Assembly: GCA_009760855.2 (NCBI GenBank)
Contig: WPIO01000035.1
Span: 1,458,501-1,522,500 of the forward strand
Direction: 5' to 3'
From: Cristatella mucedo
Lineage: Eukaryota > Bryozoa > Phylactolaemata > Cristatellidae
DNA: 64,000 nucleotides
Shown: positions 26,645 through 60,653 of the stretch, in pieces
How positions within the stretch are numbered: position 1 is the first letter of the stretch
Layout of the letters: the number at the start of each line of letters is the position of its first letter
Translations under genes and position numbers: made by a program
The notes under the pieces: generated by a model
The model's database searches: none
What the model was told of the DNA's origin: nothing
What the model saw: the letters and a program-made list of their open reading frames with translations, nothing else

Positions 26645-27088
26645 GGTTATGTCTATATGCCGAGCCGGGAATTATCACAGGCGGCTTTCGTATGGTGACA
26701 ATTAATCAAAGTTTTATTATCGAATGCCACTTTTACCTTAAATGGGCTAGACATATTACTCAGGTGACACTTCAATACAGAAGGCTGAATCAACCTTACA
26801 CTACACCAGCGGACCACGGGACTGGAACTCAGCAGATAACCTATTGGATTCAGTCACCTAACCGTGTAGTATCGTCCAAAGGAGAAATGTTCTTTTCATA
26901 TGCGATAGCTGGGAAGCCGATAAGTTGTGGAATATGGAACACTTTTACACAGGACTTTTACTGTGAGTTTCACCTGGGTCCGGCCACTACATACAATTCT
27001 GGCCTATACAAATGCATTTATCATTCAAACTGGCAATCCACTGAAATCCTGAACAGTGCAGGGGGATTCAATCCTATTTTAGTAATAG
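26645..27088 (+). CDS. Internal exon 1 of a putative multi-Ig-domain gene (Ig V-like domain)
   Basis: This 444-bp open exon (148 codons) has a pyrimidine-rich acceptor ending in TTTAG and the donor G|GTAAGC. The reading frame gives phase-1 introns on both sides, so it is a symmetrical cassette exon. The product has an Ig-type plan: a B-strand Cys in a hydrophobic stretch (SFIIECHF, Cys codon 26725), a Trp about six residues later, and a late F-strand signature NSGLYKC (Cys codon 27013), close to the classical DSGxYxC. Extra Cys pairs (ISCGIW, DFYCEF) suggest a second disulphide. There is one N-glycosylation sequon (NQS). It is probably extracellular. The family is not recognised beyond Ig-like. 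It lies upstream and on the same strand as three further phase 1-1 Ig-like exons. Confidence 0.62.
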
Positions 27089-28489
27089 GTAAGCATACTT
27101 AATTATTGCTTACTATTATTTTATCTGCAGATGATGGATTACTATTTTTACCATTATTAATCTTTACAATAATTTCCTTACAGAGCTCCTTCAATTTCCT
27201 TCAGTTAATATAGAGTTAACATCCTTTTACACATCTTATTTCCGATTTTACCTTGATGTTATGCGATAAGCTTAAAAGTAATCATAAATAAAAAATGGTA
27301 CAAAATAAAAACAAAATCAGCTAGTAGAGTACCTGAAAGTGAAGAGAACAATGTTTGTTAATATAATAGATTACTTTCTACGGCTTTTATCAAAACGTTT
27401 AGTTTGATCAGCCACAAGTAAAAATACACAACTCATCGGGGGGGGGGGAGGGCCAGTTTTGTGAGGAATCATTTGCAGGTTAATCGCTTTACTTACATAA
27501 AACTAAGGGAAGGGGTGTTGTGAGCTCTGTATTCAGTAAGTCAGATGCTTAAAAAGCTTAGATAACACAAGTATTATATTCAGGGATTAACGTGCCAGAG
27601 AGCAGGCTTTGGGGACTCCAAATTAAGTGTTGACCTTTACCCAACTTTTTCGTATGGCATTATGGCGTTCCACTCGTATCTTTGCAGTGACTGGGCTAAG
27701 GCTATTCTCAGATAAGGTACTCAAGATAAGATATGTTTAAAATAATTTGTGATGCACCTATTAGTCACTATTTATCAGCTAGCCGTCTTCCAGGGGTCCG
27801 TAAAAACCTTAGAGCATCATGAGTTCGACCTGTCAAAAGATAAGATCGGCTGTACAACCTATACAATTAACATTTTCAGAGTTCTGTAAGTCTGGTCAAC
27901 CCAGTAGATGTCTCGCTTTTTCCTCAGAATGGAGTACAATTTCGACGTTTAGTAGTTGCTTGGGCTCCCATCAAATCCACTGGGCATTCTTTTGCAAAGC
28001 AGGTCATTGACTGCCTATTTAATTCCGCCTGCTAGTTGTCCACTCATTTTAAAGAAACGGGATTCTTATCAGTGATCAAGTTTTCAAAGAGAAGTCGTAT
28101 GCATTTCTAACTAATCTAGATGCAGATGGCTCCATGCTCTGGTGGCTTTGTTTCTGAAACTACTTATCTGGTTTTTTCTTTCAGAACTTGTGGTCTGACA
28201 AGCTAGTACTAATGGTTGTTGTCGAGGTTCAAGAATTATTTGGCTATATGAATTGCAGCTTTATTTAAGTGCAACCATTTGGAAATGTTACTCACACGTC
28301 CTCATTAAAGGATATCTAGCTCCCAGTTAGGATGTACTAACCTTGATCTACCATTGTAAATCGGTATAGCCTAACGAGGATTTTATGAATAATTCAAATA
28401 CACTTGCATGTGCTTCAGACCTTAATTAAAAAAAGAATGCCTCAGCAAGCATCATCATTAACCAAACAAAAACCTGCCCCACCTGTTTC
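27089..28489 (+). other. Probable intron of the Ig gene, unassigned
   Basis: Starts with the exon 1 donor GTAAGC. It contains a G10 tract near 27439. Some of the part after 27800 may be the decayed start of the LINE B relic that follows, but I could not align it. Confidence 0.35.
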
Positions 28490-32405: not shown

Positions 32406-32493
32406 GTAATGTATCTCAGTCTGTAAGTGCAAAAAGCAATAAAGACTAAGTGGGTGTTACACAGGAGAGTTTCGTAGCACACTCAGAGCCTAA

Positions 32494-32790: not shown

Positions 32791-32919
32791 TGTGTTTAAA
32801 AGCCTAATGTGTTTAAAAGCCTAATCAGCTTTCGGTATGCATTCGGTAGCCAACCGACTTGATCTCGCCCTACAAATGAAAGCTGGGAAGCATAGCCGAT
32901 ACAGCAGGGAAGTTGAGGT

Positions 32920-35900
32920 CATAATAATAATAATATTATTAATGCACTTGATAAAGCGCCCCCAGAGAACTGAATATCTTTCTAGGCGCTTTACATTTGC
33001 TGCAAAGTGAAATGAAATTGAATAATAAGAAAAACATGCTTGATAAAGAAACAAAATGAATAACGTGGTTAGCAGTGACAAGCACAGGGTCAGCATGCAA
33101 ATGTGGTTAGTGGCAGCATGCACAGTGTCAGCACCCATAAGCACATCAAGGACGATTCACAGGGACCCACTAAATGCTGTCCTAAATAGCTGTGTTTTTA
33201 AGTTTCTTTTAAAAGTGGTCAGGTCAGGGGATGTTCTCACGCAGGTCGGGAGGGAGTTCCAGGCTTTGCGAGCATACGAACCAAATACACGGTCTCCAAA
33301 GGATTTAAGGTTTGTACGAGGTATTTCTAGACTGTTGGACGCCGAAAAGCGGGTGGTACGATGCTTGGCCTGATGGGAGAGTATGTCGGAGAGATAGGCT
33401 GGAGCCATAGAATGAAGGGACCTAAAAGTGAGCGACAAAACCTTGAAGTCAATCCCTTGCTTGACTGGTAGCCAGTGCAGGTGGGCGAGAAGTGGAGTAA
33501 CGTAGCAACTGCGACGCTCACGACAGACAAGCCTAGCTGCAGAGTTTTGCACCAGCTGCAATCGCCTGATCGCACATGCTGGTAGGCCAATAAGCAGTGA
33601 GTTGCAGAAGTCGAGACTGGATGTCATGAATGCATGGACCAACTTGGACGAGGTATTCTTATCTAAACAAGCCCGAATGTTAGCAATTTAATGAAGCTGA
33701 AAATAAGGGGTCTTGACTGTGGAGCTGATAGGGTCGTCCAATGAGAGGTCGCTTTGGAATATGACACCTAGATTTCGAGCTGATTTAACTGGAGATATGC
33801 TGGCAGAGCCAATTTTGAGAGTCAGCCGGTCCATTCTCTGAATCTCACTGGGTTCGCCCATAACTAGAAAGTTAGTTTTATCATTGCTTAGTTTTAGAAA
33901 ATTTGCTGCCATCCATGTGCGGATGTCATCAATGCATACAGCAAGTGAGTTTAGAGAATTTGAGGTGCTCGAAGGGAGGGAGGGATCAAAGCACTGGTAC
34001 AACTGAGTGACATCCGCATAGAAGTGAAAGCCTAGATTGTGCTTGGCAATCACATCAGCAAGAGGGAGAGTATAAACCATGAAAAGAACCGGACCTAGCA
34101 TGGAGTCCTCAGGTACTCCATATTTCAGAGGTACTTCAGAAGATCTATATTTGTCTATTCACATCAATACTCTGGAGTCTCCCACTGAGATAGGACCTGA
34201 ACCACTGCAGAGTAGTGCCAGTGATGCCCAGTCGAGATGAGAGGCGCTCTAGAAGAACTTTGTGATCGATGGTATCAAAAGCTGCCAAACATGATCAAGC
34301 AAAACAAGCAGAGACACTCTACCCATGTCTGCATTCCTAAGTAGGTTGTTGTATACCCTAAGCAATGCTGACTCTGTGGAGTGATTAGCTCTTAAGCCAG
34401 AATGGAACTTACTAGCAAGGTGTGAGGTTTCGATTTATGAGTTCAGCTGGTCAGCCACGACCCGTTCAGGTGTCTTTGATAGGAACGGTAATAGGGCGAC
34501 TGGGCGGTAGTTGTTTAAGTTCTCCTAGTCTAGTGTAGCTTTCTTGAGAAGTGGCCTGACTACAGCTTTTTTGAAGGGTGCTGGGACATGACCTGAGGCT
34601 AATGACATATTAACGATGTTAGTTATGCATTGTAGCAGCAGATCAATGCAACGTAGGAGCAGGACAGTGGGAATTGGGTCCAGAGGACTTGTTGTCTTCT
34701 TTGATTGAGATACGATCGTTAGGACTAGATCACCAGTGACCTGCTTAAATGCAGACATTGAGGTGCAGCCAGGAACCGAGGAACATCATTCTAGTGGGGA
34801 TGTTGTCATCTCAGGGATGAATTCCCTGATCTTGTCTATCTTCTGCACAAAGAATCGAGAGACCCGATCGGCTAGATCATCACAAGGATCATCAGGTAAG
34901 GAGCTTATCTGGGAACGGTTTAGGAGACGGTTTTTTGTCGACATCAGCATTTTAGGATTGTGGATCTGTGATAAAACAATGTTTCTAGAGAAGCTAGAGT
35001 AGGCCTTTGCTAGGATCGATTAGTACGACCTACAGTAGTCTTCATATGCCTGTCGATGGACAGTTAGTCTGGATCTTTTGTATGCTTTTTCAAGCTTTTG
35101 TTTTGTAGACTTGGCTAGTTTAATATCTGTGGTAAACCATAGGCTGTCTGGGCGGGGGCGCACAGTGTGCTTTGTCAGAGGTGCGAAATCTTCGAGGTTG
35201 ACAGCTAGTGTCGTGTTGTAGCTATCTACCAATGATGTCAGATCGGAGGGAGGACTGAGCAGCAGAGGTGAAGCAGATATTCTCGCACCGACAGCATCGA
35301 TGTCAAGGGTGTTGAGGTTTCGCGATTCACAGGTTATTTTAGATGAGGATGTGGGCACACACTGTTGATTAAATGAGATCTGCATGTGGTCAGATAAGCA
35401 TGATTTGTTTATAATTGGTGATGACAATGTGCAGTTGTATGAGAAAATCTGGTCGAATGTGTGACCCTTGGTTAGGGTAGGGCCCTGCACATGAGCCATA
35501 AGAGACAATGAGTCAGTCAAGGCACGAAATTCGGTGCTGAAAGCGTCAGATAAGTTATCAAAGTGAACGTTGAAATCACCCATATCGAGGAAGGATCGAT
35601 TTCTTGCACACAGAATCGAAATGAGATCAGAGAAATCTGAGATAAAGTAGGATTTGGTACCTGGTGGGCGATAGACTACAGCCACTATCGGTAGCTTGTT
35701 TTCGGGTGAGACCAGGACAATTGATTCAAAAGACTGCTTCGAGGGTACCGCAAATGGCTTGAAGTTGAATTTCGAGCGCACGATAAGAGCAACTCCACCT
35801 CCAGTTTTGATCGATCTAGGGGTGTGAAAGAACGTGAAACCAGATGGAGTAGCGTCTTTAATTGTCGGGCAGTTTATCGATTTCAGCCAAGTTTCAGTTA

Positions 35901-36174
35901 GGGCGAGCAGGTCGATACCATTTTCAGAAATAAGGTCGTTTATTACTAGAGGTTTATTGCACATTGAGCGAGGATTCCAAAGGCAAGCGTTAAGTCTGGC
36001 CGATGAAGTTACAACAGGCCTGATGACCACTAAGTTAGAGAGATTTACAGTGATGCATGTGGGGGAGCGTACTGAGCGGTTCGAGACAATGCTAGGAATA
36101 CCAAACGAGCGGGTACTCAGCTGGAAGCTCCTGCCCAACGAGAGGCGTCTGAGCTGGCGGTTCCGGCCACTGCG
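32920..36174 (-). mobile_element. LINE A, near full length (3.25 kb), best preserved copy
   Basis: Flanked by GAGGT (32915-32919 and 36175-36179). From the 5' side (right) it encodes an APE-type endonuclease, then RT pieces at 34525-34758 and 33688-34101, the C-terminal region 33157-33642 (ending RTAFSGSL), a 3' UTR and an (AAT)n tail. The 3' hairpin is perfect: AAAGCGCC at 32953-32960 against GGCGCTTT at 32985-32992. The RT active site reads YADV instead of YADD and the frame is broken several times, so it is not autonomous now. Whether 36174 is the true 5' end is unknown. Confidence 0.9.
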
Positions 36175-36213
36175 GAGGTAGTGAGTAGTACAGAAGCAGT
36201 AGTCCAGGACCAT
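35020..36213 (-). pseudogene. LINE A endonuclease ORF (APE-type), N-terminus borrowed from LINE B
   Basis: A 397-codon open frame. Endonuclease motifs in order: LNACLWNPRSM (N), LLALTETW (E), VVYRPPG, MGDFNVHFDN (D/N) and KSCLSDHMQISF (SDH near the end of the nuclease). A linker follows (HTVRPRPDSLWFT, KAYKRSRLTVHRQAY) to the stop. The first 11 or so codons lie in the LINE B target (VLDYCFCTTHYL matches VLNCYFYATHYL of LINE B), so the apparent start is an accident of insertion. The nuclease nicks target DNA for retrotransposition in intact elements. Here the downstream RT is broken. Confidence 0.85.
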
Positions 36214-37640
36214 TGAAAAGGATGAGCCACTGTCGGCAGTAGAAGAGAAGTTGTCGTTGCATAGGAATTATGGAAGAGAGTTCCACAACCTTGGACTGCC
36301 AGAGCTAAAGCTTTTGTGAGCAACGGTCTGTAAGTGGAAGAATAGAACAGCTACTTCAGTGTCCATGCAGAACCTGAGGGCGCTGAAGTGGGTGAAACTG
36401 ATGCAGCAGTTCAGCTAGATACGATTGAGCCAAGCAGTCGCAGGCCTTGTCGGTTAGCGTAAGAACTTTGCTCTGTAACTTTTGATTAAGTGGCAGCCAT
36501 CCCAGCTCTCTTAGCCAAGGATACACGAGATCAGGGCTCTCGGACTAGAAAACTAACCTCTCAGCCATATTAATAACAACCTGCAGTGGCCTACTTACTT
36601 TATTTGGTAGCCCAGACAGAAGGGAATTGCAGCAATCAAGACGAGCCAGAACTGAGGAGCTAGTTAATTTACAGCAAACCACTGTGGAATACAGCTCCTA
36701 ATCTTGGATAGGGATTGAAGTTGATGGCAGGAATTAGATGCAGTCTTCTGAATGAAGATTTTGAAATTAAGTTGCTGTCAAAAAAGGCACCAAAATTTTG
36801 AGCGCATGCTGATGGTCTCACTACAGCAATAATAATTAGAAGAGCAAAGCTTCTTAATCCAGCCACATGCTCAGGGTGTCTTATGCACAGCAGTTCATTT
36901 GTATAGTCATTCGGTCTCAGGTAGTTTTCTGACATCCAGAATCTAATGTCGAAAAGGCAAGCATTCAGTTTATTAGTTGCTGCCGAAGACACCGGCAGTT
37001 TGAATGGCAAATGCAGCTGAGTATAGTAAGCATAAAAGGGATATCATTTTCAATGGGCCATAATCACTTATCCCAGGGGTTGAGTTTAGTTGGAAAACTG
37101 CAAGCGACCTAGGACGGACCGTTGAGGGACTCCACAGATGGCCAAATTCGTGTGTTAGACCTGACCCCAGCACGACACGCATTGAACACCGTCAGACAGA
37201 TCGGCATTTTCAATCGCTCAAGTAGAACTTCGTCACCAATGGTGTTGAAAGCAGCTGGTAGATCTAGCAGAGCTAGGGCTGTGATATTATCTTCATCGTT
37301 GCCACATGAAATGTCGTAGTTAACATGGAGGAGGGCAGTTTCAGTGGAGTGCTGCTTCTTGAGCACTGACAGAAAAGCTTCTGTCATTTATTTCATTTTA
37401 ATATGTGCAACCAGCTGCTTAGCAGAAGGTTTTTCAAGAATCTTCGACAAGAAAGGAAGAAGGGAAACACAGCAATAGTGTACTCTGACCTCGGTCTCTA
37501 ATCCAGACTTTTGATATATGAGTCTAACGATGGCCAATTGCAAAAATTTCAGTATAGGGTCTTCAAGAGACGAGCTATTTTTACTAGACCATATTAAGGT
37601 AGCCACATCGCATTCAGAAACCTCGGAAAACATTTAAAAA

Positions 37641-38355: not shown

Positions 38356-38359
38356 TATT

Positions 38360-38770: not shown

Positions 38771-39151
38771 ACAAGCCATGTGTTCGGATAAGTCAAAGTG
38801 CTCAGCAGGAGAATCAGTGGTTTGGAGGCCTTGCCTACTTTGCCTGCTGTGAATGCTTATCTTGGGCATCCGCCGATGTTTATAAAGCAATCGTGAAATG
38901 GGATGCCTTCGGACCTATATCGGAGGATCCAAACAATGGTGAACTTGTCGACCATGGAAGTAGTCACAGTCGCCATATTGGAAAACCTGAGTGCAGCCAT
39001 AGATCTACTTTCATTTTGCCTCACTGGACAAAGACTGGAAGTGAAATAAAACTTGGTTGTACAGTAGACGTGTCGTACAAGCTGTATACAAATCACAGCC
39101 ATCCTAAATTTTTATTACCATCTCAGGAAATACTTAAAAGAATAAACCAAG
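38771..39151 (+). CDS. Internal exon 2 of the putative multi-Ig gene (six-Cys Ig-like domain, type 1)
   Basis: This 381-bp open exon (127 codons) has an acceptor after TTCCTTTATAG and a donor at CAAG|GTGCAT, phase 1 on both sides. It starts DKPC, then CCEC after about 21 residues, then a C-strand IVKW, KPEC, and a final RSTFILPHW...LGC block typical of the later half of an Ig fold. It has six cysteines and one sequon (NHS). It is the paralogue of the exon at 60282-60653, with every cysteine and Trp conserved at nearly constant spacing and close to half the residues identical. The donor's +3 G is weaker than usual. Without splicing, the frame would stop at 39166-39168 shortly after the boundary, so a terminal exon is the alternative. 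The matching donor position in the paralogue favours splicing. Confidence 0.75.
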
Positions 39152-40975: not shown

Positions 40976-41795
40976 GCAAGTGAAACGAGGATTTTGTAGA
41001 AAAATACAACACGTTAGAGATCTAGTGAAGCAGCACTTATCAAGACTAATTAAAAATTTAAAAGTTATGAGACCTCTTTCTAAGTAATTCAAAAACTTGA
41101 TAATTATTATACCTTTGTCATAGTAATTAAAATTATCTCATATTGAGGACACTACATTAGCTGATCTCTCACGTATTGACGTTAATTTTTTGCAGCCTTA
41201 ATACTTTAGATGCAAAAGCTTTGCCTCTCATTGTACTTAACTAGTAAATATAGCAACATCACAGTCAGCTCTAAAGGATCTCGGGATTACATATCCTTGT
41301 GCTCGGCCAATCTCTTTCAGACTTTAGCAACACAATACTTTGAAGATTTTATGTTATGAATATTATTAGGCTAATGAATGCCCAGCTGCAAAAAATTACA
41401 CAGAAAGGAGTGACGAACTTCTAATAAATATCTAATTCCCGGAAAAATGCATGCGTGCAAGTACATGCACCAAATCACAACTTTACCGACTAGTGGATGC
41501 TCAGTGACAATCAGTAATGGATTATGTCATTTTTACTCCTTTAATAATGAATGAGAGCAGGATCGGCTAGAATAAAAGTGTTCGACGAATATTGTTCAAT
41601 AGATGTCTTACTTTCATGAAGGAAATGGTAAACTTATTTTAAATTTTATGAGATACTACTGTTCAGTTCAAATGAGATACAATTTCCTATTACAATGCTA
41701 TGGAACAAATCAGAAGATATATCTATAAAAATATGTAATGAAAGTGAATCAGTAGTCTAGGGGCCATTACCTTGGCAAAAGAAGTGAGTTATCAT
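40976..41795. other. Probable intron, unassigned AT-rich DNA
   Basis: No feature recognised. Confidence 0.35.
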
Positions 41796-41796
41796 T

Positions 41797-42645
41797 ATAA
41801 TAACATTAGTACAATTATTATTACACTCGATGAAGCACCATCGGAGAACTCAATCTCTTTCTAGGCACTTGAAATCCGTTCCAAATGAAACATGATCTAA
41901 CGGTGGGTGAAATCGTGTTCGATAAACAGCATGAATAACGAAGTTAAGGGTGATGTTGGCAGGGTCAGCATGCAAGTGTGGTTATAGGCAGCATGCAACC
42001 GAGTCAGAATGCATAAGCACATACAGGACCAATCACAGGGACCTGCTAAATGCTGTCTTAAATAGTCGAGTCTTAAATTTGTTTTTAAAAGTAGTAATGT
42101 CAGTGAATATCGTCACACAAGTCGGGAAGGCGTTCTAGGCTTGGGAGTGCAATGACTAAATGCATGGTCTTCAAAGAAATTTTCAGTTTGTATGAGTTAT
42201 AGGTAAGGAGCTAGATTCCGAAATTTGGATGGTGCGATAGTAGGCCTTGCAGTGGAGTAGATGTGATAGGTAGGCTGCAGCCAAATAATGTAAACCTTGA
42301 CGTCAATACGTTGTTTGACTGGTAGCCAGTGCAGGTCGGCGAGAAGTGGTTTGATGTGGCAACATTGAAGCTCACGACGGACAAGCCTAGCTGCAGAGTT
42401 TTGCACCAGCTGTAAGCACCTGATTGCACAAGCCATTAGGCCAGCAAGGAGTAAGTTACAGAAGTCGGGACGGGATGTCACACATGCAGGGAGCAACTTA
42501 GACATGGTATCCTTATCTAAACAAGCCCGATTCTTGAAATAGTTATCTAGCTGAAATTAGTCAGACTTGACTGCTGAACTGATGTGGTCATCCAACGAAA
42601 GGCCACTTTGGATTATGTCACAGAGTTTGTGCAGGTTCAATAGGA
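41797..42645 (-). mobile_element. LINE A 3' copy, diverged
   Basis: Tail near 41797-41825, hairpin region, 3' UTR, C-terminal ORF with an internal deletion (42197-42505 keeps VQNSAARLV, LADLHWLPVKQRIDVKV), up to TAGGAGAT where the next copy abuts. Confidence 0.8.
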
Positions 42646-43098
42646 GATAATAATAATAATAATGCACTTGATAAAGCTCTCTCAGAGAACTTAATCTCTC
42701 TCTAGGTGATTTACATTTGCTGCCAAGGGAAATGCAATTGAATGGTGAGTAATATCATGATTGATAAACAGCGTGAACAACATGGTTAGGGGTGACATGC
42801 ACAGGATCAGCATGCAAATGTGGTTAGTGGCAGCATGCACAGCGTCAGCACACATAAGCACATGAAAGACGAATCACTGGGTCCCACGAAATGGTGTCCT
42901 AAATAGGTGTGTTTAAAATTTTTTTTTTAAATGTGGTCAAGTCAGGGGGTGTTCTGAAGCAAGTCGGGAGGGAGTTCCAGGCTTTAGGAGCCCAAGAACT
43001 AAACGCACGGTCTCCAAAGAATTTGAGCTTTGTACGAGGTACTAGTAGACTGTTGGATTCCGAAAAGCGGGTGGTACGATGCTTGGCCTGGTGGGGGA
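42646..43098 (-). mobile_element. LINE A 3' fragment adjacent to the previous copy
   Basis: (AAT)5 tail, hairpin, 3' UTR and C-terminal ORF up to the HQAKHRTTRFSESNSLL region (open 42899-43165, ending in non-LINE sequence). Well preserved. Same orientation as its neighbour. Confidence 0.83.
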
Positions 43099-43466
43099 AA
43101 CCAGTTGGTAAGAAAGATGCGGTCAGATATTTACCAATCAGCTCATCAAAAGTTATTAAATGCATAGGAGAAACTCTAGTGATATACTTGTATGTAATTG
43201 ATATGCTCTTCTGGAGCTCACAGCCTCAGCTATTGTAGAATGGTTTGATAGAACTCGTAGGATGTGGCCGTTGGGCAACTCAGTTCAGTAAGAGGTGGTG
43301 CTCGTATGAATGGAATATACGGACTTACTTCAGGCTAGCACATGTTCACGAAGACGGAGTCGGTTGGTCGACAGAGGGGGATTCAATTCCTTTGCATGGA
43401 GATGGAGTGACTACTGTTAGTCCCATGCTGTAAACTATTTATTTCCTGCTGGCAGCAACAATTTGT

Positions 43467-43645
43467 ATGATAATAATAATACATTTGTATAGTGACCTGA
43501 GTTAACTCAAAAATCTCTTCCTCGGCACTTAAAAATTGCTGTAAGGGAAGCATCATTAAATGGTTAGTGGTAGCGTGCTCAATGACAACAAGCACAACAT
43601 AATTAGAGGTGGCATACAAAAGGTCAGGATGCAAATATTGTTAAA
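43467..43645 (-). mobile_element. LINE A 3' relic
   Basis: AATAATAATAC tail and the decayed hairpin and UTR (GGTTAGTGGTAGCGTGCTC, GGTGGCATAC, AGGTCAGGATGCAAAT). Confidence 0.6.
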
Positions 43646-43649
43646 AAAA

Positions 43650-43733
43650 ATGCTAGATGATTTAACAGCCTCTTTTGTATGGATACGGATGGGTCTTGGA
43701 GGCTATTGCCACTGCTTACAGCGGCAATAAAGG
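43650..43733 (-). mobile_element. SINE-2 3' fragment
   Basis: Reads on the minus strand as GCGATCCTTTATTGCCGCTG, TAAGCAGTGGCAATAGCC and AGAGGCTGTTAAATCA, the 3' half of SINE-2. It is sandwiched between two LINE A copies. Confidence 0.72.
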
Positions 43734-43735
43734 AT

Positions 43736-44562
43736 CGCCCACGCAATAATGATATTGACAATAATAATAACACTGCACTTGATAAAGCGACCTCAGAGAA
43801 CTCAATCTCTTTCTAGGCGCTTTACATTTGCTACAAAAGGAACGTGGTTAAATTGGTGAGTAATATCATGCTTGCTAAACAGCATGAATAACATGGTTAG
43901 GGGTGACATGCACAGGGTCAGCATGCAAATGCAGTTAGTGGCAGCAAGCACAGTGTCAGCACGCATAAGCACATGAAGGGCGAATTACATAGACCCACTA
44001 AATGCTGTCCTCAATAGATGTGTTTTTAAGTTCTTTTTAATTGTGGTCAGGTCAGGGGATGTTCTGACGCAGGTCGAAAGGAGTTCCAGGCTTCGGGAGC
44101 ATACGAGCTAAATGCACGGTCTCCAAAGGACTTGAGGTTTGTACGAGTTATTTGTAGACTGTTGGATTCCAAAAAGCGGTTGGTACGATGCTTGGCCTGA
44201 TGGGGTAGTTTATCTGAGAGATAGGCTGGAGCCAAAGAATGAAGTGACCTAAAAGAGCGTGTCAAAACCGTAAAGTCAATCCGTTGCTTGACTGGTAGCA
44301 AGTGCAGGTCGGCCAGAAGTGGTGTAAGGTGGAAACTTGCTATGCTCACGACAGACAAGCCTAGCTGTGGAGTTTTGCACAAGCTGCAATCGCCTGATGG
44401 CATATGCTGGTAGGCCAGTAAGCAGTGAATTGCAGAAGTCGAGACGGGATGTCACGAATGCATGGACCAACTTGGACGTGGTATCCTTATCTAAATAAGC
44501 CCGAATTTTAGCAATGTTATAAAGCTGAATATAGGCAGATTTGACTATGGAGCCTATATGTA
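43736..44562 (-). mobile_element. LINE A 3' copy
   Basis: (AAT)n tail, hairpin, 3' UTR and C-terminal ORF. Open pieces 44047-44403 and 44276-44470 carry SLAPAYLSDKLPHQAKHRT and VHAFVTSRLDFCNSLL, with frameshifts between them. It ends at GACTATGGAGCC where the 700-bp direct repeat begins. Confidence 0.85.
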
Positions 44563-44564
44563 CA

Positions 44565-45268
44565 GGAGTACAAACTTATTTATGCATAAGTTTAAATATG
44601 GTATCACTTGTACTTATTACGTTATGGTTTAATCCTAACAATTGAGATATTATAGAAAATGATATAACCATAAACCTGATTAAAGAATGAAGATGAGACC
44701 AAGCTTCGTGAATTTACCTGCTATCAACTTTCGAGGCTGCAGAAAACAATAATGTCATTGAATGATGTCATCTCAATAAACAGCAAATGGTTGTTGCTTG
44801 TGTGGTAGCAAGAATGTTCAAATCGGTGAACATAAAACCGGCCAGGCGGTTTTACTTGGCTACAAGGTTATGTAAGCATAATACTAGAAGGTTAGTTTAC
44901 ATGACACCTATTAAGATTTAAGATATATTCAGCTTAGAAATAGAAGTTTTCCTATTTGAAACTACTGCGGGAGTTTTTAATAAAAAAAATTACACTGCAA
45001 CTGTTGATGGCAGATCATATTGAGTATCTTTAGAACAGCTCGCTAACACTAGTCCCACTTGAAAATATAGATGGAGCGCTGCAGCAGGCTCCCCTACTGT
45101 AAACTGAAACCAAGACTATGCAATCAGCATGTTTTTCTCCGAAATCTGCTCGAATGTTAAAGTTACTCAAAATTTAATCTAAGTGGAGCAACTTGAATAA
45201 AATCACACAAATACAAAACTAAAAGTACTTTGGTTGATGCAAATTGGCACTCTAAGAAGTTCCGAGCT
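44565..45268 (+). repeat. ~700-bp direct repeat, copy 1
   Basis: Begins AGGAGTACAAACTTATTTATGC and ends CACTCTAAGAAGTTCCGAGC. The same sequence recurs at 46200-46918 with scattered substitutions and a few indels. No terminal inverted repeats, coding frame or recognised family. Confidence 0.8.
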
Positions 45269-45269
45269 A

Positions 45270-46010
45270 GTTCCAAAGCTACCTTTCATTAAACCACCAA
45301 ATCAGCTCCTCTATCAAGTCTGCCCACTTGCTGCTACATGACAGTGCTAATGTTCGTGATTGCTTTGAAAAGAATATCACATCTAAATTCGTCCATGCAT
45401 TCGTGGCATTTTGCGTCGACTTTTGTAGGTCACTGTTTGCTGGTTTACCGGTCTGCAAAACCAGGCACCTAGCTCTTCTGTCTTTAGCATTGCAGTTGAC
45501 ACAGCGAACCACCAATTGCCGATCTTTACTGGTTCTTAATCAAGAGGAACGTCGATTTAAAAGTTCCACCACTTACTTTAAGGTCTCTTAATTCTCTGGA
45601 TCCAGCCTAAATTTCAGAAAAAATCCACCCCTCCACTAGGCGAATAATCTTACTACCGGCTGCTGTGATTCTACTCGTATAGCTATGCCTCGTAGGAAAC
45701 TTCAAACCGTTGAGCCCCATGCGTTTAGTTCCTATACCTGAAAAGCCTAGAAGCCACTACCTAGGCTCGTTACAACGTAACTTCACATGATGACAATATT
45801 AAAAGCATAACGCCAAAATGTTAATTGCAGTGTGAGTTGGCCCATTGGGACTCTTTAGTTTGCATGTACCTCATTACTTTGCTTGCTGCTTGCGAACATT
45901 CCCACCAAGCACGTGGTAATGCAGTTAATGCAAATCTGAAAAGAGCCAAGGAATACTTTCAGATCTGTTTAGTTTTTGCAAGCAATAGTCGCATTCCAAA
46001 CGAGAGCTCA
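45270..46010 (+). mobile_element. LINE A relic between the two direct repeats
   Basis: Degenerate plus-strand match: CCAAAGCTACCTTTCATTA (SDLSLDDH region), TTCGTCCATGCATTCGTGGC, TCACTGTTTGCTGGTTTACC, and on through a decayed C-terminal region. Confidence 0.6.
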
Positions 46011-46199
46011 CTCAAGTAAACCACGTGTGCATCAAAATTTGCCAAAAGCAAAATTAGAAGCTATCGAAATGCTTTCGAAAATAAACTTTCTGTTAAAGCA
46101 TGTTAGGCAACTCGGCATTCATAAGAGAAGCAGCTAAAGCGGCTAGAGCGGTCGCTCTAGTTACAGTACAACATGGATAGGTTTCAGTTGATTGATGTA

Positions 46200-46918
46200 A
46201 AGGAGTACAAACTTATTTATGCATAACTTTAAATATGGTATCACTTGTACCTATTACGATAGAGTTAAATCCTAATAATTAAGATATTATAGAAAATGCT
46301 ATAACCGTAAACCTGATTAAAGGATGAAGATGTGACCAAGCTTCGTGAATTTCCCTGCTATCAACTTTCGTGGTTGCAGAAAACAACGATGTCATTGGAT
46401 GAAGTCATCTCAATAAACAGCATGTGGTTGTTGTTAGTGCGGTAACAAGAATATTCAAAATGGCAAAATATATAATATAAAATATAAAACCGGCCAGGGA
46501 CTTTTACTTGGCTACAAGGCTGTGAAAGTATAATACTAGAAGGTTAGTTTACCAGACACTTATTAGGATTTAAGATATATTGACGATAGAAATAGAAGTT
46601 TTCTTATTTGAAACTACTCTGAGAGTTTTTATTACAATAATTAAATTGCAACTGTTGATGGCAGATCATATTGAGAATCTTTAGAAAAGCTTGCTAATAA
46701 TAGTCGCGCTTGAAAATTTAGATGGAGGGCTGCAGCAGGCTCCCCTACTGTAAACTGAAACCAAGACTACGTAATCAGCATGTTTTTCTCCGAAACGTCC
46801 TCGAATGGTAAAGTTACTCAAAATGTAATCCAAGTGAAGCAGCTTGAATAAAATCACAAAGATTAAAAAGTAAAATTACTTTGCATGGTGCAAATTGACA
46901 CTCTAAGAAGTACCGAGC
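46200..46918 (+). repeat. ~700-bp direct repeat, copy 2
   Basis: Parallel to 44565-45268 over its whole length. Includes an extra AT-rich insertion near 46462-46485. Flanks differ from those of copy 1. Confidence 0.8.
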
Positions 46919-47869: not shown

Positions 47870-47883
47870 AAATATATATGAAC

Positions 47884-47915
<32 letters not shown>

Positions 47916-47922
47916 TATATAT

Positions 47923-47992
<70 letters not shown>

Positions 47993-48019
47993 ACGCATAT
48001 ATATATATATATATAAACA

Positions 48020-48096
<77 letters not shown>

Positions 48097-48155
48097 GTAT
48101 CTATCTATCTATTTATCTATCTATCTATATATATATATATATATATTGATGTGTA
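47870..48155. repeat. TA-rich compound microsatellite
   Basis: Long (TA)n runs interrupted by TAAATAAATA, CACACA, two ATAAACACGCATATAT blocks and a (TCTA)n stretch near 48100-48130. It ends about 130 bp before Ig exon 3. It cannot be coding despite open frames of I/Y repeats. Confidence 0.95.
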
Positions 48156-48286: not shown

Positions 48287-48592
48287 AAAGCCCCACGGTT
48301 AAAGTTACAATTATTTCTGAATCTAAAACTCTGTGGACAGTTCGAGTCGGCTGTGTGCTGCCTGATATTTCTCCAAGGAACTTTATTAAAGTAACCTGGC
48401 TACTAAACGGGAGCAATTTCAACGAAATGGTACCTGAAGAATCTACTTTCGATACTAAAGTTGTTCTGATGAGCACTTTAGAATTCAGATTGGTACCGGG
48501 GAATCACTCTATTCAATGCTTAAGAGATGTGAATATTAAAGGTGTGGCTCAACTGAGATCTGACGTGCTAGGAGTGTTCTTCCCACACCCAG
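48287..48592 (+). CDS. Internal exon 3 of the putative multi-Ig gene (compact Ig C-type domain)
   Basis: This 306-bp open exon (102 codons) has an acceptor ending TTTGTAG and a strong donor CCAG|GTAAGA, phase 1 on both sides. The domain has the Ig core: VRVGC (B strand), FIKVTWLL (C strand with the core Trp), a run TLEFRLVPG (E strand) and HSIQCL (F-strand Cys). Its length of about 100 residues is normal for a C1/C2-type Ig domain. It has two sequons (NGS, NHS). It sits about 130 bp downstream of a long TA-rich microsatellite. It is not close to exons 1, 2 or 4 in sequence, so it is a third domain type in the same array. Confidence 0.65.
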
Positions 48593-50196: not shown

Positions 50197-50973
50197 TTAA
50201 GCAGGAGAGTTTTGTATAGCCCACTCACAGCCTAAGCGGCTTTCGGTACCCATTCGGTAGCCAACAGACTTCGTCTCACACAACAAAGAGAAAGTGGGAA
50301 TCATAGCAGAGTTAGGAGAGAAGTTGAGGTAGTGAGTAGCATAGAAGTAGCAGTTCAGGACCACTGAAAAAGATGTGCCAAAGTCGGCAGTTGGAGGGTA
50401 GATGTCGTTGCTTAAGAATTGTGGAAGAGCGTTCCACAGTCTAGGACCTGCAGAGCTAAAGCTTCTGTCGCCAACTGTCTTTAAGCGGAGGAATGGGACA
50501 GCTAATTTATTGTCCACACAGGACCTGAGGGCGCGAAAAGGCTGAAACTGATGCAGCAGTTCAGCTAGGTACGAAGGAGCCAAGCCGTGGTGGGCCTTGT
50601 GGGTCAGCCTAAGAACTTTGCTCTGTATCCTTTGCTCAACAGGCAACCATCCCAGCTCTTTCAGCAGAGGTGACAGGTGCTCAAACCGCCGGGACTTGAA
50701 GGCCAGCTTTGCAGCCATATTCATTGTCCACTGTAGTGGCGTAATAGCTTTCTTTGGTAGCCCAGCCAAAAGGGAATTACAATAATCAAGCCGAGACAGA
50801 AATAAAGAGCTAGTTAACATGTTTACAAGCCACTGTGGGAGACAGCTTCTAATCTTGCATAGGGATCGGATGTGATGGCTAGCTGTAGAGGCAGTCTTCT
50901 GAATGAAGCTTTTGAAATTGAGGCAGCTGTCGAACACGACACCTAAATAACGAGCACGTGGTGAAGGTCGCAC
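50197..50973 (-). pseudogene. LINE B C-terminal ORF segment
   Basis: A 258-codon frame downstream of the RT active site: ARYLGVVFDSCLNF, SRLDYCNSLLAGLP, KELGWLPVEQRIQSKVL, SFSSAGPRLWNALPQFL, ending WAIQNSPA. This segment is diagnostic of the family and recurs in most LINE B fragments in the window. It is uninterrupted here but cut off from the RT core by a stop. Confidence 0.85.
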
Positions 50974-51299
50974 AATAGCATCACCTATTTGAACAGCAAA
51001 GCTATTTAATCCAGCAATACGCTTAGGGTGTCCTATGAGCAGCAGTTCGGCTTAATCGTCATTTAATTTCAGGAAGTTTTCCGACATCCAGGATTGAATA
51101 TTGGCAAGGCAAGCATTCAGTTTCTCAGTTGCGGCAGCAGATTCCAACGGTTTGAATGACAAATACAACTGAGTATCGTCAGCATAGAAGTGATATCCTA
51201 TTCCATGGGGCTTAATCACTTTTCCCGGAGGTTGTGTATAAATGGAGAACAGCAAAGGACCGAGTACAGACCCTTGAGGGACTCCACAGGTGACCCTTC

Positions 51300-52061
51300 T
51301 CATGTCTGAGACCTGACCCCCACACGACACGGATTGAACACGATCAGACAAGTATGATTTAAACCACGCCAGTCCAGTGCTTCGTTTGCCAGACCGATCG
51401 TTGTTCTCAATCGTTCGAGCAGAACTTCGTGATCAATGGTGTCGAAGGCAGCAGCCAGATCTAGTAGAGCTAGGGCAGTGACATTCCCGTCGTCGTTGCC
51501 ACGTAGAATGTCATCGTTAACACAAAGGAGAGCAGTTTCAGTAGAGTGCTGCCTCTTGAAACCTGATTGAAATGTTTCTGAAATTCCATTATTTTCAATA
51601 TGTTCAACTAGCTGCTTAGCAACAATTTTTTCAAGAATCTTTGATAAGAACGGAAGAAGGGAAACTGAACGATAGTTTGCTAGGACCTCTGTGTCTAATC
51701 CAGGCTTTTTAAGAATAGGTCTAACGATTGCAGATTTGAAGGACTTGGGGACGATCCCTTTTTCCAAAGAAGCATTAAAAATATTGGTTACGGCAGGGCA
51801 AAGTTGGTCTGCAAGTGAAGACCACAGAGATGAAGGCATCGACTCTTCAGGAGAAGAGCTCTTTTTGCTAGACCTTATTAAGGCAGCCACATCACAGGCA
51901 GAAACATCGGAGAACCTTTTAAGAAAGGTCACAGGTTGAGGAACGGCGATTGCTTTGGTCGGAGGGGGCTTTATGGAGGCACGAATGTGCACAGTTTTTT
52001 CAGTAAAGAAGGCTGAAAACTTTTCGGCTGAGCCCTTTATATCTGGGGAGTCAGACCTCAC
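51300..52061 (-). pseudogene. LINE B reverse transcriptase, N-terminal two thirds
   Basis: A 253-codon frame with RT landmarks: FKSAIVRPILKKPG, LANYRSVSLLPFLSKILEK, FQSGFKRQHSTETALL and [20 protein letters not shown] (motif A with Asp). The last residues are out of frame. RT continues in 51052-51351 with [16 protein letters not shown] and the catalytic YADD, so one frameshift separates motif A from the active-site Asp pair. A stop lies just after LNDD. Confidence 0.85.
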
Positions 52062-52610
52062 AGCATTGGCCAGTAAATGGTTTACTGTCTTATAAATCTG
52101 TTTAGTGTCCGACTGGCAGGAATTCAGTTTTCTAATGAAAAAAAAGCCCTGGCTTTTTTAAGCTTTCGGGTGTAAACTCGAAGGAAGTCTTTAAAATTGA
52201 CTAGGTCTGCCTCAGACCCCGATTTCTTGAAACGACGTTCCAGCGTGTGCTTAACACGGCTCATCTTAAGGAGTTTTTTTTTGTAAATTGAAAGGAATAT
52301 CGACGACTTTGAACACGGATAGAGCGAAAGGGAGCATGCTTTTCAAGAGCTCTCCCGAGTGTCATGTTCATGGCATCAGTGAGGGTATCGAGGCTGCCGT
52401 TCGAGTCTGAATGCAGATCAAGAAGGCCTGCATCACAAACAGATTTCAAAAACTTGTCCATGTCAATGCTTTGTAAGTTACGTCGTTTGGCAAATTCGAC
52501 ATTGCCCTGCACGTACGAGGTAACAGGAACAGTAAACGAGACCAAACAATGATCTGAGAGGGTCAGTGGGCACACCACAAAGTCAGTGGGGAGGATATCC
52601 TTAGTGATCA

Positions 52611-52797
52611 CGAGCCGTAATGGTTCACTAGGCAAGGCGGTTGCTTTTCACGACCTCGGCCGCGAGGTCGTGAGTTCGAATCCTGCGGTGGGCGATCCTT
52701 TATCGCCACTGCAAGCGGTGGTGATAGCCGTAAAGGCTCTTCTGCCGCTATACAAAAAGTGGCTGTTAAATCAGCTAGTATTTATTTATTTATTTAT
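52611..52797 (+). mobile_element. SINE-2, tRNA-derived, inserted in the LINE B endonuclease
   Basis: GAGCCGTAATGG, then A-box-like TTCACTAGGCAAGG, B-box GTTCGAATCC (52674-52683), the internal CCACTGC/GCGGTGG hairpin, CAGCTAGTATT and a (TTTA)n tail at 52781-52797. The LINE B reading DLVITKDI on the left and STHVGCHIL on the right belong together. A clear target duplication is not visible. Confidence 0.9.
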
Positions 52798-53751
52798 AGA
52801 ATGTGGCAACCGACGTGGGTGCTATGATTAACGAGTTGGGCCAAACCAAAATTCTCCAGACATTCAAGAAATGAGCTGACCTGGCTGTTGCTCGGGTTGT
52901 CAACGTGAATATTGAAGTCTCCTACAATCAGTAACGGCCTGTCACACACAAATATTTTAGCGAGGAACTCTGAAAACTCCTCTATAAACAAGTTTAGACA
53001 GCCAGGAGGCCGGTATATCGCAACGGTGTGAGGCATTGTCTTTGATGAAGACCTGATAGCTACCGATTCAAACGATGACCCATGCGAGAAACTGCACATT
53101 CGATAGCCAAACGATTCGTGAACAACAATTACAACCCCGCCACCAACCTTGTCAGAACGCATGCACTGATAGAATGAGAACCCGGGTGGGGTGGTCTCGG
53201 AAATACAGCTACTGGAACAAGGCGTCATCCAGGTTTTGGTAAGCAGAAATGCATCTAGCTTCTCCTGGACCACCTGATTGCGGATAAGTAACCCATTGGT
53301 TTATAGCGAGCGGACATTTAGTAGGCGGAATTTAAGAGGCTGTCCAACAACTGGGCGACGGCGATCAAGTGGCTTGTATTCTCCACCGTTTGCGTCCGGC
53401 CCAGCGAACGCCGGCTCTTCGAATTTGAATTGGACCTTGGTAACGGCCGTCGGACGACGTTTCACAACGTGCTGGGCTACGGCGGAAGGGCTACTACCGC
53501 AACAAGTACTATTTAGCGCTTTAAACTTACGAGTCGTAGGTTTGATAGCCGAGCTGTTGATAGGGCGAACGCAGGATGCAGGAAGGTTCTCACTGACCCG
53601 CCGGAGAAGGCCCGCCGGTAGGTATCGACTAATGGCGACATCGCATCTTATGCTAAGCAGGTCCTGTTTTGTGTAGCATATCCGAGGACAGCTCATAAAT
53701 AGTCACAGCGAAGATAGCATCGGAATACCCGAAGGTATTACCGAGAAATCA

Positions 53752-53799
53752 AGTAAAGGTCCACACCATGCTAGGAGTAAAGGTCCACACCATGCTAGG
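53752..53799. repeat. Two 24-bp tandem units at the LINE B 5' end
   Basis: AGTAAAGGTCCACACCATGC plus TAGG occurs twice without mismatch, just upstream of the first LINE B frame. Confidence 0.9.
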
Positions 53800-53849
53800 A
53801 GTCACCCGAGGCCGCTCTTTAGCGCGGGGAGGAATAATAAGATGTAGTA

Positions 53850-55050: not shown

Positions 55051-55054
55051 ATGA

Positions 55055-55800
55055 AACTGTGAAATCCGTCAGAAGCGGGTTCCACGTTTTAAAGACATTT
55101 AAACTAAAGGCATGACCTTCAAAGAACTTGAGGTTTCTACGAGGCAATATAAACACTTTGATTTCAAAAAGCTGGTAGGACGATGCTTAGCTAGGTGCGA
55201 AATACGTAGAAAATAGGCTGTTGAGAAAATGGAGGGTCCTACAATTAAGTGACCAAGCCTTAATGAGGATACCATTCTAAACTGAGAAGTTGTGTAGGGC
55301 GACGAGAATTGTTGTGCTTTGGCAGCTGTCAGGTTAACAAGCAGACCAACCTACCTGAAACGTGAGCCACGGATTACAAAACCAGGTAGACTAGTAAGCA
55401 GTAATCGAAGCTGAGTTGGGATTCCACGAATGCATTAACCAATGTAGATGTCGCATCCCTTATTTAAGCTGGTAGAAATCGTATCAAGACATGTAGCTAA
55501 AAGTAGGCAAGCCTTACTGTAGGTCTGATGTTGTCTTCTACTAACTGACTACTTTGCAACCGGACTCGTAGATTGTGAGCATCCACATTTAGTAGCGTTT
55601 GAAGTGACCTAAAATCATAAAGGCACAACTTCAGGAATTGATTTATGCTCAAGTGCAGCTGCTTGTCCCACCATATGAAATTAGAACCTGGATCATGCCT
55701 AACTTCTTTAATCAGGAGGCTGACTTTAAATTTGGGAACTAGTTTGTCACAAGGTAAATCATGCATATGTGTTTTTTTAGTCTTCATTGACTAATGGTTC
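55055..55800 (-). mobile_element. LINE A relic
   Basis: A degenerate match from GTTCCACGTTTTAAAGACATTT through AAAGAACTTGAGGTTTCTACG and the thumb region to about 55800. No 3' tail. Confidence 0.6.
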
Positions 55801-55839
55801 TATGGGGAGGCGTTAAAGTATGAAGACTTCAAAATATGT

Positions 55840-57560: not shown

Positions 57561-57599
57561 CGGGCTTGTAAAGCAAGTAACGTTATTAAGCTTAGTTGA

Positions 57600-60281
57600 A
57601 AGCTCAACAGAAATATATATTATCTCGACTGGCAATGTGCCGTAGCCTGATAATCTCTCCCAGCAAAACTGACCAAGGCAGAGGGCACCGCACAGTTAAT
57701 CCTTAAATGAAGAGCCTGGGATGGTAGCAACCAGGCGGTGCCAATCCTTTCAGTTGACTTTGCTTAAAAGTAAAAACAAATCTGGCTAAGAAATCTAAAC
57801 TAATCTAAAATCTAAATCTAAAATCTAAATCTAAAAAATCTAAATCTATAAATTTAGCTTCAGTATCCATATTAATGTCAGAAGGCATAATAGAGGACCA
57901 TCGTTCGCTCAACAAGATAATCAAAGCCAACGGTTTAGGCACTTTTCGGGTTCCCAACAACAGTGGTAGGCAAACGCTGCCTCTTAAGTAGATACTGCTA
58001 AGCTGGTACTCCAGTTTGGTTTAAGGGCTCTACCTATTTATTTTTAGTTTGATCTCAACTGAACTTTCGTCATTGTGTTCCATATCAATATTGCTGATTA
58101 TACGTCAGCTGTAGCGTGTGTTCATTTTAAAACTGACATCAGAGGCCGGTGTTAAAGAGAAGAGCCTGACAGGGACGGGTTCTAAATTCCTAAAAATGTA
58201 ATTGCAGTTTGGTTTATGAATGTCGCTGCTGCTCTTGGTTTTTCATCATCTAGGGCCTATTCCCGCCTTTAAAATGGGGCCATACATTTAATTCTGTCCT
58301 AGTGAGTCTTCTTTACCTCCTGAAGTACCATCATAGTCCTAAAGCTAATTTCTAACTCCTTTCACATTATATAAAGATTATATAAGCAGGCCAAACCTTG
58401 AGTGAAGCAACTAAACTAAACTAAAACAGCTATTCCAATATCTATAAAATTAAACAGAGTGCAACTAATCTATTAAATTGCATATATTAACCGGGCAAAA
58501 AGAACTTTCCTTAAGGTGCATAGATTTGGCATCGACTTCTTTTTAACTTGCCTGACAGTAATTTCCTTAAATGACGCTAAAAATAAACCAGGCGTTGTTT
58601 ATTTATTGAATAATTTACAGTTGTTTGTAAATTGATTTCTGAAGGAGACCCTATAAATTGACCTATCATGGCTAGGAAACGGTTTGAAAGGTTTCAGATA
58701 AGCCTATTGGCAATACATCCAGTAGCAAGCGATCAAAGGTATTTATTGACTTAACAGCATGTAGATGTTAATTTAGAATAAGAAAGGGACAAACAAGGAA
58801 ACAAGACACAGAAGCTGGTGGATGTTTTACACTCGAAGCAGTCGTGTGGCGAGTAGCTCCCTAATTATTGTATAGCCAAGGGAAAATCTGCTATCGGTTG
58901 CTTCAAATACAGACCAGAAGTCAGTAGACTGAGTATGAGGTTCAGATAAGGTTTTGATGTTGATAGCAACGTTTATATGCGTAAGTCAGTGTCACAAGTT
59001 CTCTCCCAATGATGCAGATGCCGGTCAATAGAACCATTTACAGCTTTAGAAATCAGTAGTAATTCTTATTGATGTCTTACAGTCAGGCCTATTACGCTAT
59101 TAAACCAGGTTGAAAAGCTAGTTTTCCTTGATCTTTCATTAGTCGTTTAAACTTGAGCAGTATTGGTACAAACTTTGTGACATTGAACCTATAAGGTGAG
59201 CTCAATACTGTTAAATCAATATGAATCTATGGGTGTGCCAAAAGGGCCGTTTGAATACCAGAAATATAATCTAGCTTATATCAGTGTCATTTGAACACGA
59301 ATTGTGACACAAAAATATAACTATACAAATTTCGTATGAACGAGCCCAATTATGTTTTAGTAAGTTTGATTTTGTTAGGAAAAAGCAATGAGACCAGATT
59401 TAAGCTCTATCATAAGTTGATAAAAGGTTTCCATATGATATACCGGCCTCAAAGGGCACAATAAGAACATAAAAATTGATGTCCTGAAGGCAGCTGAAAT
59501 GTAGCTAAGACCATAACTTGTAGGCCCACTACTTCCTGCTGTAAAATATATGGCTACTAAATTGAAAATACCAAACATGTATGGTTAATGGTGGCATCTT
59601 GACACTTAGCATCAAACTAAACTGAAAGAGACTTTCTAACCCATGATGCAATCAAATACATTTATAACTACTCACTCTGTAGCTAGGTGAGTTAATTATC
59701 ACCTTGGTACTCGATGCTTAATTTTCCATGCTAAAGAGCTTAAAACTAAGATATATTACATTTTCCAAAATGAGATTACAAGTTTAACAAATAAATCAGT
59801 CAGCTAAGTTGATTCAATGATACTGATTGCTCTAAGCGTCAGCATACTTTCGCAAATAATTGAGCAAAAATAAATGAGAAATTGTTTGATCGGGTTGGGG
59901 CCTTAATTTTCAGCTTTACTCTAAGCCGCTCCATGGCAATATAATAAGTGCAAAGTATACAAAATTTAACCATTTTAACAAGATTGTGAAAGTTCTCTAA
60001 CAGTTTGAGGTCTTAAGTTTTGCTATTGATGATAACATAATATAATACAACAAACTTTAAAGATCACAACTGGAGATATCCAACGGTCAGAACTATAGCA
60101 GGCCTCTAGCAATGAGTAAACATGTAATTCAGGAGAATTTTAGATGTTAAGCAACACTGGAGCTGAAGCTAATACTTACAGAAATTGTTATGTACGAAAA
60201 CACGTTTTTCACTAATGTAATAACCATGTGCTTCGCTGTGCGATTTTAAGCTCCATGAGGTCAGCCTCATTTTCGTTGCAG
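57600..60281. other. Probable intron before exon 4, mostly unassigned
   Basis: Contains a short run of AAATCTA-type units (57796-57852) and an 8-bp inverted pair GGCACCGC / GCGGTGCC (about 57686 and 57734). The part 57870-58260 looks less AT-rich than its surroundings but has no open frame or known repeat that I recognise. The remainder is plain AT-rich DNA. Confidence 0.35.
57796..57852. repeat. Short tandem repeat (AAATCTA-type)
   Basis: Irregular repeats of CTAAAATCTAAATCTAAA with length changes. Confidence 0.8.
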
Positions 60282-60653
60282 ATAAGCCATGTCTATGGAC
60301 TGAGGAAGCAAAGAATCAACTGCCTCACTGGCTTGAGGGTTTTTCTTACTTTGTTTGCTGCGAATGCTTGGACTGGGCATCAAGTGACCATTACCAAATA
60401 GTAGTAAGGTGGATAACTTCTGGACCGTTGCATAACAGCCCTAACTCAGCTGAATCCATGAGGCAGGGAGATAATTATAGCAGCAAAATTAGAAAGCCAG
60501 AGTGTAATCTGAGATCCACTTTCATTATTCCCCAGTGGAAAAAGAATGAAACTAAAATCAAAATATGGTGTTCAGCTGAAGTGAGAAAGCGGTTATCGCC
60601 TCATGTTGCAGTCACTATACAATCGGATGACATACAAAAAGAAGTTAAACCAG
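60282..60653 (+). CDS. Internal exon 4 of the putative multi-Ig gene (six-Cys Ig-like domain, type 1)
   Basis: This 372-bp open exon (124 codons) has an acceptor CGTTGCAG and a donor CCAG|GTATGT, phase 1 on both sides. The architecture equals exon 2: DKPC, a 21-residue spacer, CCEC, a WASSDHY turn, VVRW, KPEC, RSTFIIPQW and IKIWC. All six cysteines are kept. It has one sequon (NET). The first intronic codons after both type-1 exons are also similar (G-x-FD), as expected for a duplicated exon with flanking DNA. A LINE A 3' remnant begins less than 100 bp downstream in the intron. Confidence 0.76.

Follow-up and report, generated by a model that had tools for sequence, protein, structure and literature searches.

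Tandem genes for putative multi-domain, immunoglobulin-like transmembrane receptors in the bryozoan Cristatella mucedo

The arthropod Dscam gene encodes a multi-immunoglobulin (Ig) receptor, and its duplicated exons are alternatives that exclude one another within a single gene. The Alr genes of the Hydractinia allorecognition complex lie in a tandem cluster and encode type I receptors, whose Ig folds have diverged in sequence and whose V-like domain, the farthest from the membrane, is variable. The locus reported here overlaps a 64,000-nucleotide stretch of the Cristatella mucedo genome (assembly GCA_009760855.2, contig WPIO01000035.1, positions 1,458,501 to 1,522,500; hereafter the window). 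The window carries the 5' part of a gene, gene A, which probably encodes a type I transmembrane receptor and, judged by sequence similarity, is one of several tandem paralogs. In contrast to the Alr genes, which are smaller and encode fewer extracellular domains, gene A has eight domain exons in a model of approximately 83 kb.

The closest described family that we found is that of the Fester co-receptors (FcoR) of the fuhc locus of Botryllus schlosseri. FcoR genes form a multigene family, and their products are type I membrane proteins in which an N-terminal variable-type Ig domain is followed by further Ig domains; they are 520–610 residues long, contain a single sushi domain and two Ig domains of the C2 type, and have a transmembrane segment and tails that can carry immunoreceptor tyrosine-based inhibitory motifs (ITIMs), hemITAM or core-tyrosine motifs (PMC12065747). 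The same account places ITIMs and immunoreceptor tyrosine-based activation motifs (ITAMs) on candidate genes of the Hydractinia allorecognition complex (PMC12065747). The plan predicted for gene A is similar: a gene family, a probable V-like Ig tip, a transmembrane segment and a tail. Size and the sushi domain differ. Gene A encodes approximately 1130 residues and features two domain types, termed D and d, and the sushi family is absent from the Pfam matches of its exons E1–E9 at E ≤ 10, within HMMER filters. Literature searches returned the Botryllus analogue and no title recognisably concerned with the present array, which is weak evidence of novelty.

Four exons of gene A are located in the window, all on the plus strand: E1 (26645–27088, 444 bp), encoding an N-terminal V-like, probably Ig, domain; E2 (38771–39151, 381 bp), encoding a D-type domain with a CCxC..W layout; E3 (48287–48592, 306 bp), encoding a d-type domain similar to the Ig C1-set; and E4 (60282–60653, 372 bp), encoding a D-type domain predicted to form a sandwich similar to Ig or fibronectin type III (FnIII) domains. 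The preliminary description had presented them as exons with lengths that are multiples of three, preceded by AG, followed by GT and in phase 1 on both sides (phase 1-1). Borders and frames were re-read and hold for all four. A scan of both strands of the window for splice-bounded, phase 1-1 open stretches of 300–460 bp yielded eight stretches, namely E1–E4 and four located inside long open reading frames. Translations of the latter resemble, by eye, the reverse transcriptase or endonuclease of long interspersed nuclear element (LINE) retrotransposons, and one of the four has a Pfam endonuclease match. In 100 simulated sequences with the dinucleotide frequencies of the window, the mean number of such stretches was 0.41 and the maximum was 2. 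Paralogs of the four exons in the same genome are stronger evidence that the exons are real than the excess found in the scan. The idea that the exons are chance open stretches or transposon-derived sequence, to which a window full of LINE-like remnants might lend itself, is for practical purposes refuted by the simulation, by the conservation of paralogs with ratios of nonsynonymous to synonymous substitution rates (dN/dS) below 1 for E2–E4, and by the behaviour of three domain profiles, which gave no minus-strand match in 260 kb at E ≤ 0.01.

Gene A continues past the window. Contig coordinates, obtained by adding 1458500 to window positions, are used for sites outside the window and, where stated, within it. 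Four more plus-strand exons, all phase 1-1 and multiples of three, are located at contig positions 1523450–1523821 (E5, D type), 1532529–1532843 (E6, d type), 1536235–1536606 (E7, D type) and 1539619–1539933 (E8, d type). These are followed by a terminal plus-strand exon, E9 (1542441–1542874), which enters in phase 1; its product consists of a hydrophobic segment and a tail, ended by a stop codon. AATAAA is found approximately 130 bases 3' of the stop. The V-like E1 comes first in the domain order and is followed by D d D D d D d, where E2, E4, E5 and E7 are the D exons and E3, E6 and E8 are the d exons. All exons from E1 to E9 are open and have AG/GT borders. In E9, in frame and in phase after E8, the putative transmembrane segment has a mean hydropathy of 1.99 over 19 residues, as calculated by simple hydropathy, and is followed by a tail of approximately 115 residues. 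A tentative signal exon on the plus strand at window positions 1018–1108 has two ATG codons (1018 and 1054) and encodes a hydrophobic, signal-peptide-like stretch; its phase-1 donor (C|GTGATA) is weak. It aligns with the equivalent place upstream of gene B, a downstream copy of gene A, where both ATG codons and the hydrophobic core are kept; there, the donor is T|GTGATT, so that a weak phase-1 GTGAT donor is common to the two copies. When this exon is included, the joined exons encode 1133 residues with no internal stop, the eight top-scoring 19-residue hydropathy windows all fall within residues 995–1021, directly before the tail, and the model spans approximately 83 kb, or 58 kb if this exon is left out. 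We infer that the exons are joined in one transcript, which would encode a type I transmembrane protein. The data support the earlier view that they specify part of a modular, extracellular multi-domain protein and enlarge it to a gene model with a transmembrane segment. The proposal that they are the sole coding signal in the window apart from transposons fits the open reading frames that were met, which are otherwise transposon-like, but has to make room for the tentative signal exon (short exons were not exhaustively searched). No match resulted from a search of the window against Rfam (gathering threshold) or from a tRNA scan.

The d domains may be assigned to the Ig C1-like type on sequence similarity. 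C22, W37 and C77 are invariant in the four sequences aligned (E3, E6, E8 and one paralog), and a profile of the family retrieved 391 PDB sequences at E ≤ 10, 60 of them listed, and reached antibody C1 domains, the best match being an IgA1 heavy chain (E 9.5e-7). E3 alone reached only E 0.82 in the same database. The Pfam Ig-clan check suggested in the preliminary description placed E3 (C1-set, E 0.001, 19.8 bits) just below the curated cut-off of 21; E6 (C1-set, 15.5 bits) and E8 (Ig_3, 15.2 bits against a cut-off of 30) also fell short, and neither the gene B copy of E3 nor the tail exon E9 had a Pfam match. A match above the cut-off is usual in, but does not define, the Ig superfamily. For E3, the case for Ig identity is good. 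Among the vertebrate proteins in the PDB matches (LILR/NCR, T-cell receptor (TCR) and antibody domains), similarity outside the C1-like d domains is weak, and no orthology is claimed.

The homology of E2 and E4 (40% identity, E 2e-36) had escaped the preliminary description. In 19 aligned D sequences, Y22, C25, C26, E57, C74, S78, C96 and S114 are invariant and W43 is nearly so. The Cys-Trp-Cys core layout is present in these sequences and in the four d sequences, and the proposed Cys/Trp arrangement is therefore kept in the E2/E4 and E3 types; in E1, the Trp is not kept in the intact relative, as noted below. None of the 19 D members matched an Ig family in Pfam, where E2 had no match and E4 had one irrelevant weak match. 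The D profile gave two matches among PDB sequences at E ≤ 10, neither of them an Ig domain, the better one (E 0.32) being a chitinase-like protein. A structural model of E4 (predicted local distance difference test score, pLDDT, 84.7) adopts an Ig/FnIII-like sandwich with a helix at residues 56–68. Ig identity of E2 and E4 is unproven by this predicted fold. With 19 aligned members and no relevant Pfam match, D is a candidate new domain family. Relatives were also sought in the collections viral_contigs and genome_contigs, in which 49 and 13 pattern matches, respectively, were obtained and none was confirmed. VWDE (von Willebrand factor D and EGF domain protein), which presumably has, towards its N-terminus, an Ig-like domain of comparable divergence, is a possible lead; no VWD or EGF family was present among the Pfam matches of the exons scanned.

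E1 is probably an Ig domain, as suggested by a Pfam match of its gene B relative below the cut-off. Its one intact relative is located in gene B (contig positions 1626454–1626894), and the other relatives are broken or weak; because E1 is known only from the 260 kb searched, its copy number is a lower bound. C27, C94 and C106 are invariant in three rows, one of which is a fragment, and GLY(K/R)C occurs in both intact rows. In Pfam, E1 matched Ig_2 (E 0.077, 13.7 bits against a curated cut-off of 27), and its gene B counterpart matched 'ig' (E 0.0027, 18.4 bits against 21.8). The best match of E1 among PDB sequences, a weak one (E 0.09), was LILRB1, aligned over the C-terminal GLYKC region. Foldseek searches with the E1 model returned weak matches mixing antibody and TCR V domains with viral and phage proteins, and were set aside as fold evidence because the model is of low confidence.

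E4 and E3 were searched against the whole 572 Mb genome at E ≤ 10, and the resulting counts are lower bounds because only scored candidates are listed. Including itself, E4 has at least 37 places in the genome, 29 of which are on the contig of the window, all on the plus strand, between 1431249 and 2089453. E3 has at least 29, itself included, with 23 on the same contig and strand. The array therefore covers approximately 660 kb (1.43–2.09 Mb). Of the 52 contig matches, the D at 1962735 (E 0.77) and the d at 1966116 (E 0.84) score lowest, and six (3/29 D and 3/23 d) contain stops. When the 52 places are grouped by gaps of more than 25 kb, two blocks, gene A and one at 2002 kb, read D d D D d D d; three others (at 1635, 1746 and 1856 kb) read D d D D d D d D d, and four further blocks are shorter or broken. 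A tree was built from 17 of the 29 D exons on the contig and two further ones; its 19 members group largely by position within the gene. For instance, E2 groups with the first D exons of the 1635, 1746 and 1856 kb genes (support 0.94), E4 with the copy at 2019407 (1.0), E5 with 2077941 (0.99), and E7 with 1798100 and 2036562 (0.95). The rule is not strict, as the second D of gene B (1650 kb, outside the tree) resembles E5.

Such an array might be a single giant gene, with repeated D and d exons serving as splicing alternatives as in Dscam. Gene A would resemble Dscam as a multi-Ig receptor with duplicated exons, all D and d matches of the array share one strand over its whole length, and the symmetrical exons of gene A would keep many combinations in frame. 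In contrast to Dscam, whole genes seem to be repeated here: a terminal transmembrane/stop exon follows the D and d exons of gene A, another follows the next, broken copy (1590 kb), and gene B carries an E1 and a candidate signal exon of its own. In the blocks viewed, up to 1660 kb, separate genes fit better, and a single giant gene is very improbable.

Remains of other copies were observed on either side of gene A. Upstream, E1-like and D-like pieces with stops occupy contig positions 1423967–1431608. Between genes A and B, a broken copy with D and d pieces is found at 1562411–1590607 and includes an open transmembrane/tail exon near 1590180. Away from the array, D and d matches are neighbours, at distances of up to approximately 13 kb, at two places each on contigs 376 and 299 and at one each on contigs 111 and 254; the contig 299 matches are weak (E 0.017 and worse). 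Since D and d adjoin there too, the two together may represent a more ancient unit.

The 5' and 3' parts of gene A have different nearest relatives, as the alignments on the E1-E2 side differ from those on the E3-E4 side. E1, E2 and their introns align with gene B at 74–82% nucleotide identity, and the E2 flanks align in long pieces with the genes at 1746 and 1856 kb (75–76%). In blastn comparisons, the last long alignment with gene B ends at contig position 1500135, and the next long non-repeat alignment starts at 1505404, its partner being the broken copy between genes A and B (1569633–1572847). This places a mosaic junction at window positions 41636–46903, in the E2-E3 intron. Synonymous divergence (dS) between genes A and B is 0.18 at E2 and 1.03 at E3. 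E3 is 60% identical to the E3 of gene B at the protein level, with no flank aligned at E ≤ 1e-5 in approximately 0.8 kb on either side, and is 88% identical to the copies at 2009942 and 2070579; the 3.2 kb around it align with the same stretch of the broken copy (72%). E4 is closest to the copy at 2019407 (88% protein identity), and its flanks are 85–86% identical to those of that copy over 426 bp on the 5' side and all 1500 bp on the 3' side, part of the latter being a repeat also present on another contig. The first D (2002638) of the gene holding 2019407 is of another subtype than E2. Exchange by unequal crossing-over or conversion would be the simplest reading of these alignments; unequal loss of copies could mimic the pattern. 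As every domain exon is symmetrical (phase 1-1), exchange of exons or blocks between copies keeps the frame.

The dS of E2 against three relatives is 0.13–0.18, lower than the divergence of the flanking introns (approximately 25%), a hint of gene conversion centred on the exon or of constraint on silent sites. A 275 bp array of AT dinucleotides (window positions 47872–48146) ends 140 bases before E3, and a TA/TG-rich stretch is also located just upstream of the broken copy at contig position 1570942.

The dN/dS ratio is 0.39 for E4 against its closest copy, 0.52–0.59 for E2 against three copies and 0.67 against one broken copy, 0.28 for E3, 0.52 for E5, and 0.62–0.75 for four other pairs of D exons. 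These values bear on the notion that gene A is a non-expressed pseudogene relic. The broken state of other copies, including the stops counted above, and the weak donor of the signal exon speak for it; ratios under 1 in the E2–E5 comparisons and the open, properly bordered E1–E9 speak against it, and we regard it as decidedly unlikely. Confidence is far higher that gene A is a genuine coding gene for several domains than that the receptor reading as a whole holds.

E1 has the highest ratio of the exons compared (1.16, bootstrap interval 0.74–2.0). Its nucleotide identity to gene B, 74.1%, is at or just below that of the flanking introns (75–82%). E2, in contrast, is 88.8% identical and its flanks 74–76%, save for the last 35 bases before the exon (91%). 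Variation is uneven along E1: codons 38–68 are 74% identical, codons 69–109 are 29% identical (dN 0.51 versus dS 0.20; 34 versus 4 differences), and codons 28–37 are 20% identical with saturated dS. The pattern fits a framework with a variable face, as read from this alignment; relaxed constraint is a possible alternative account.

Taken as a whole, the data make it reasonably probable that gene A encodes a type I transmembrane recognition or adhesion receptor. A probable signal peptide would precede the fast-evolving V-like tip, seven one-exon D and d domains, the transmembrane segment and the tail. The outermost domain, E1, may contact a variable ligand at the cell surface, the D and d domains would form a spacer stalk, and the tail may pass on a signal, possibly through a single YxxL-type motif, LQYQGL, near the membrane. 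Exchange of symmetrical exons or blocks between tandem copies would have given rise to the mosaic gene. Expression, ligand binding and signalling are inferred for gene A.

Several points weigh against this receptor model. It is built on genomic sequence, from which expression and exon joining are extrapolated, and the continuous DNA examined comprises gene A and only the start of gene B. The donor of the signal exon is weak and was selected by visual inspection, gene A having no counterpart of the stronger donor in gene B. In E1, the core Trp (W34, after the first Cys) is not kept in the intact relative, and the structural model, made from three sequences, is mostly beta but poor (mean pLDDT 50.5). 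The fold neighbours of E4 are tied among Ig, FnIII and other sandwiches, with unrelated sandwiches scoring about equally. The E1 ratio is not significantly above 1 and comes from one pair of copies, the E1 segments, including the variable codons 69–109, were chosen after the alignment had been viewed, and the bootstrap interval of the E2 ratio (0.58) is 0.31–1.17, which includes 1. Finally, LQYQGL, which was compared with the ITIM consensus, is short, and its tyrosine is missing at that place in the other tail compared, that of the broken neighbouring copy.

Some of these points would suit a structural or developmental adhesion receptor, acting between cells, gametes or neurons, in which E1 changes fast because constraint was relaxed once the gene had been duplicated. 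Most multi-Ig type I proteins serve in adhesion, the interval of the E1 ratio includes 1, and the tail has no clear repeated signalling motif. In contrast, recognition families commonly show the pattern seen here, with tandem copies, some of them broken, mosaic exons and an outermost domain that diverges at the rate of introns. We consider this adhesion role rather unlikely, though not negligible.

For the recognition receptor favoured here, an immune or self/non-self role, in line with the possibility of recognition or immunity raised in the preliminary description, would be drawn by analogy from the tandem family, the mosaic copies and the fast outermost domain, and is a guess. It is a doubtful proposition that the array constitutes an undescribed invertebrate recognition locus, with tandem receptors of eight to ten domains, exon swapping, a fast V-like tip and an uncatalogued D domain. 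If it does, it would add to the examples of Ig-type receptor diversification outside vertebrates, with exons and introns whose similarity allows exchange between paralogs to be traced. The array also provides specific gene models that can be tested, and a candidate for a variable domain.

The introns of gene A are packed with LINE-like remnants, found at window positions 21602–25185 (plus strand), 35020–36267 and 50197–53300 (both minus strand) and elsewhere. Three of the seven pieces scanned against Pfam have endonuclease or reverse transcriptase matches, and the other four have neither. The matches are to Exo_endo_phos (3e-8), RVT_1 (8e-13) and, below the cut-off, Exo_endo_phos_2 (0.001).

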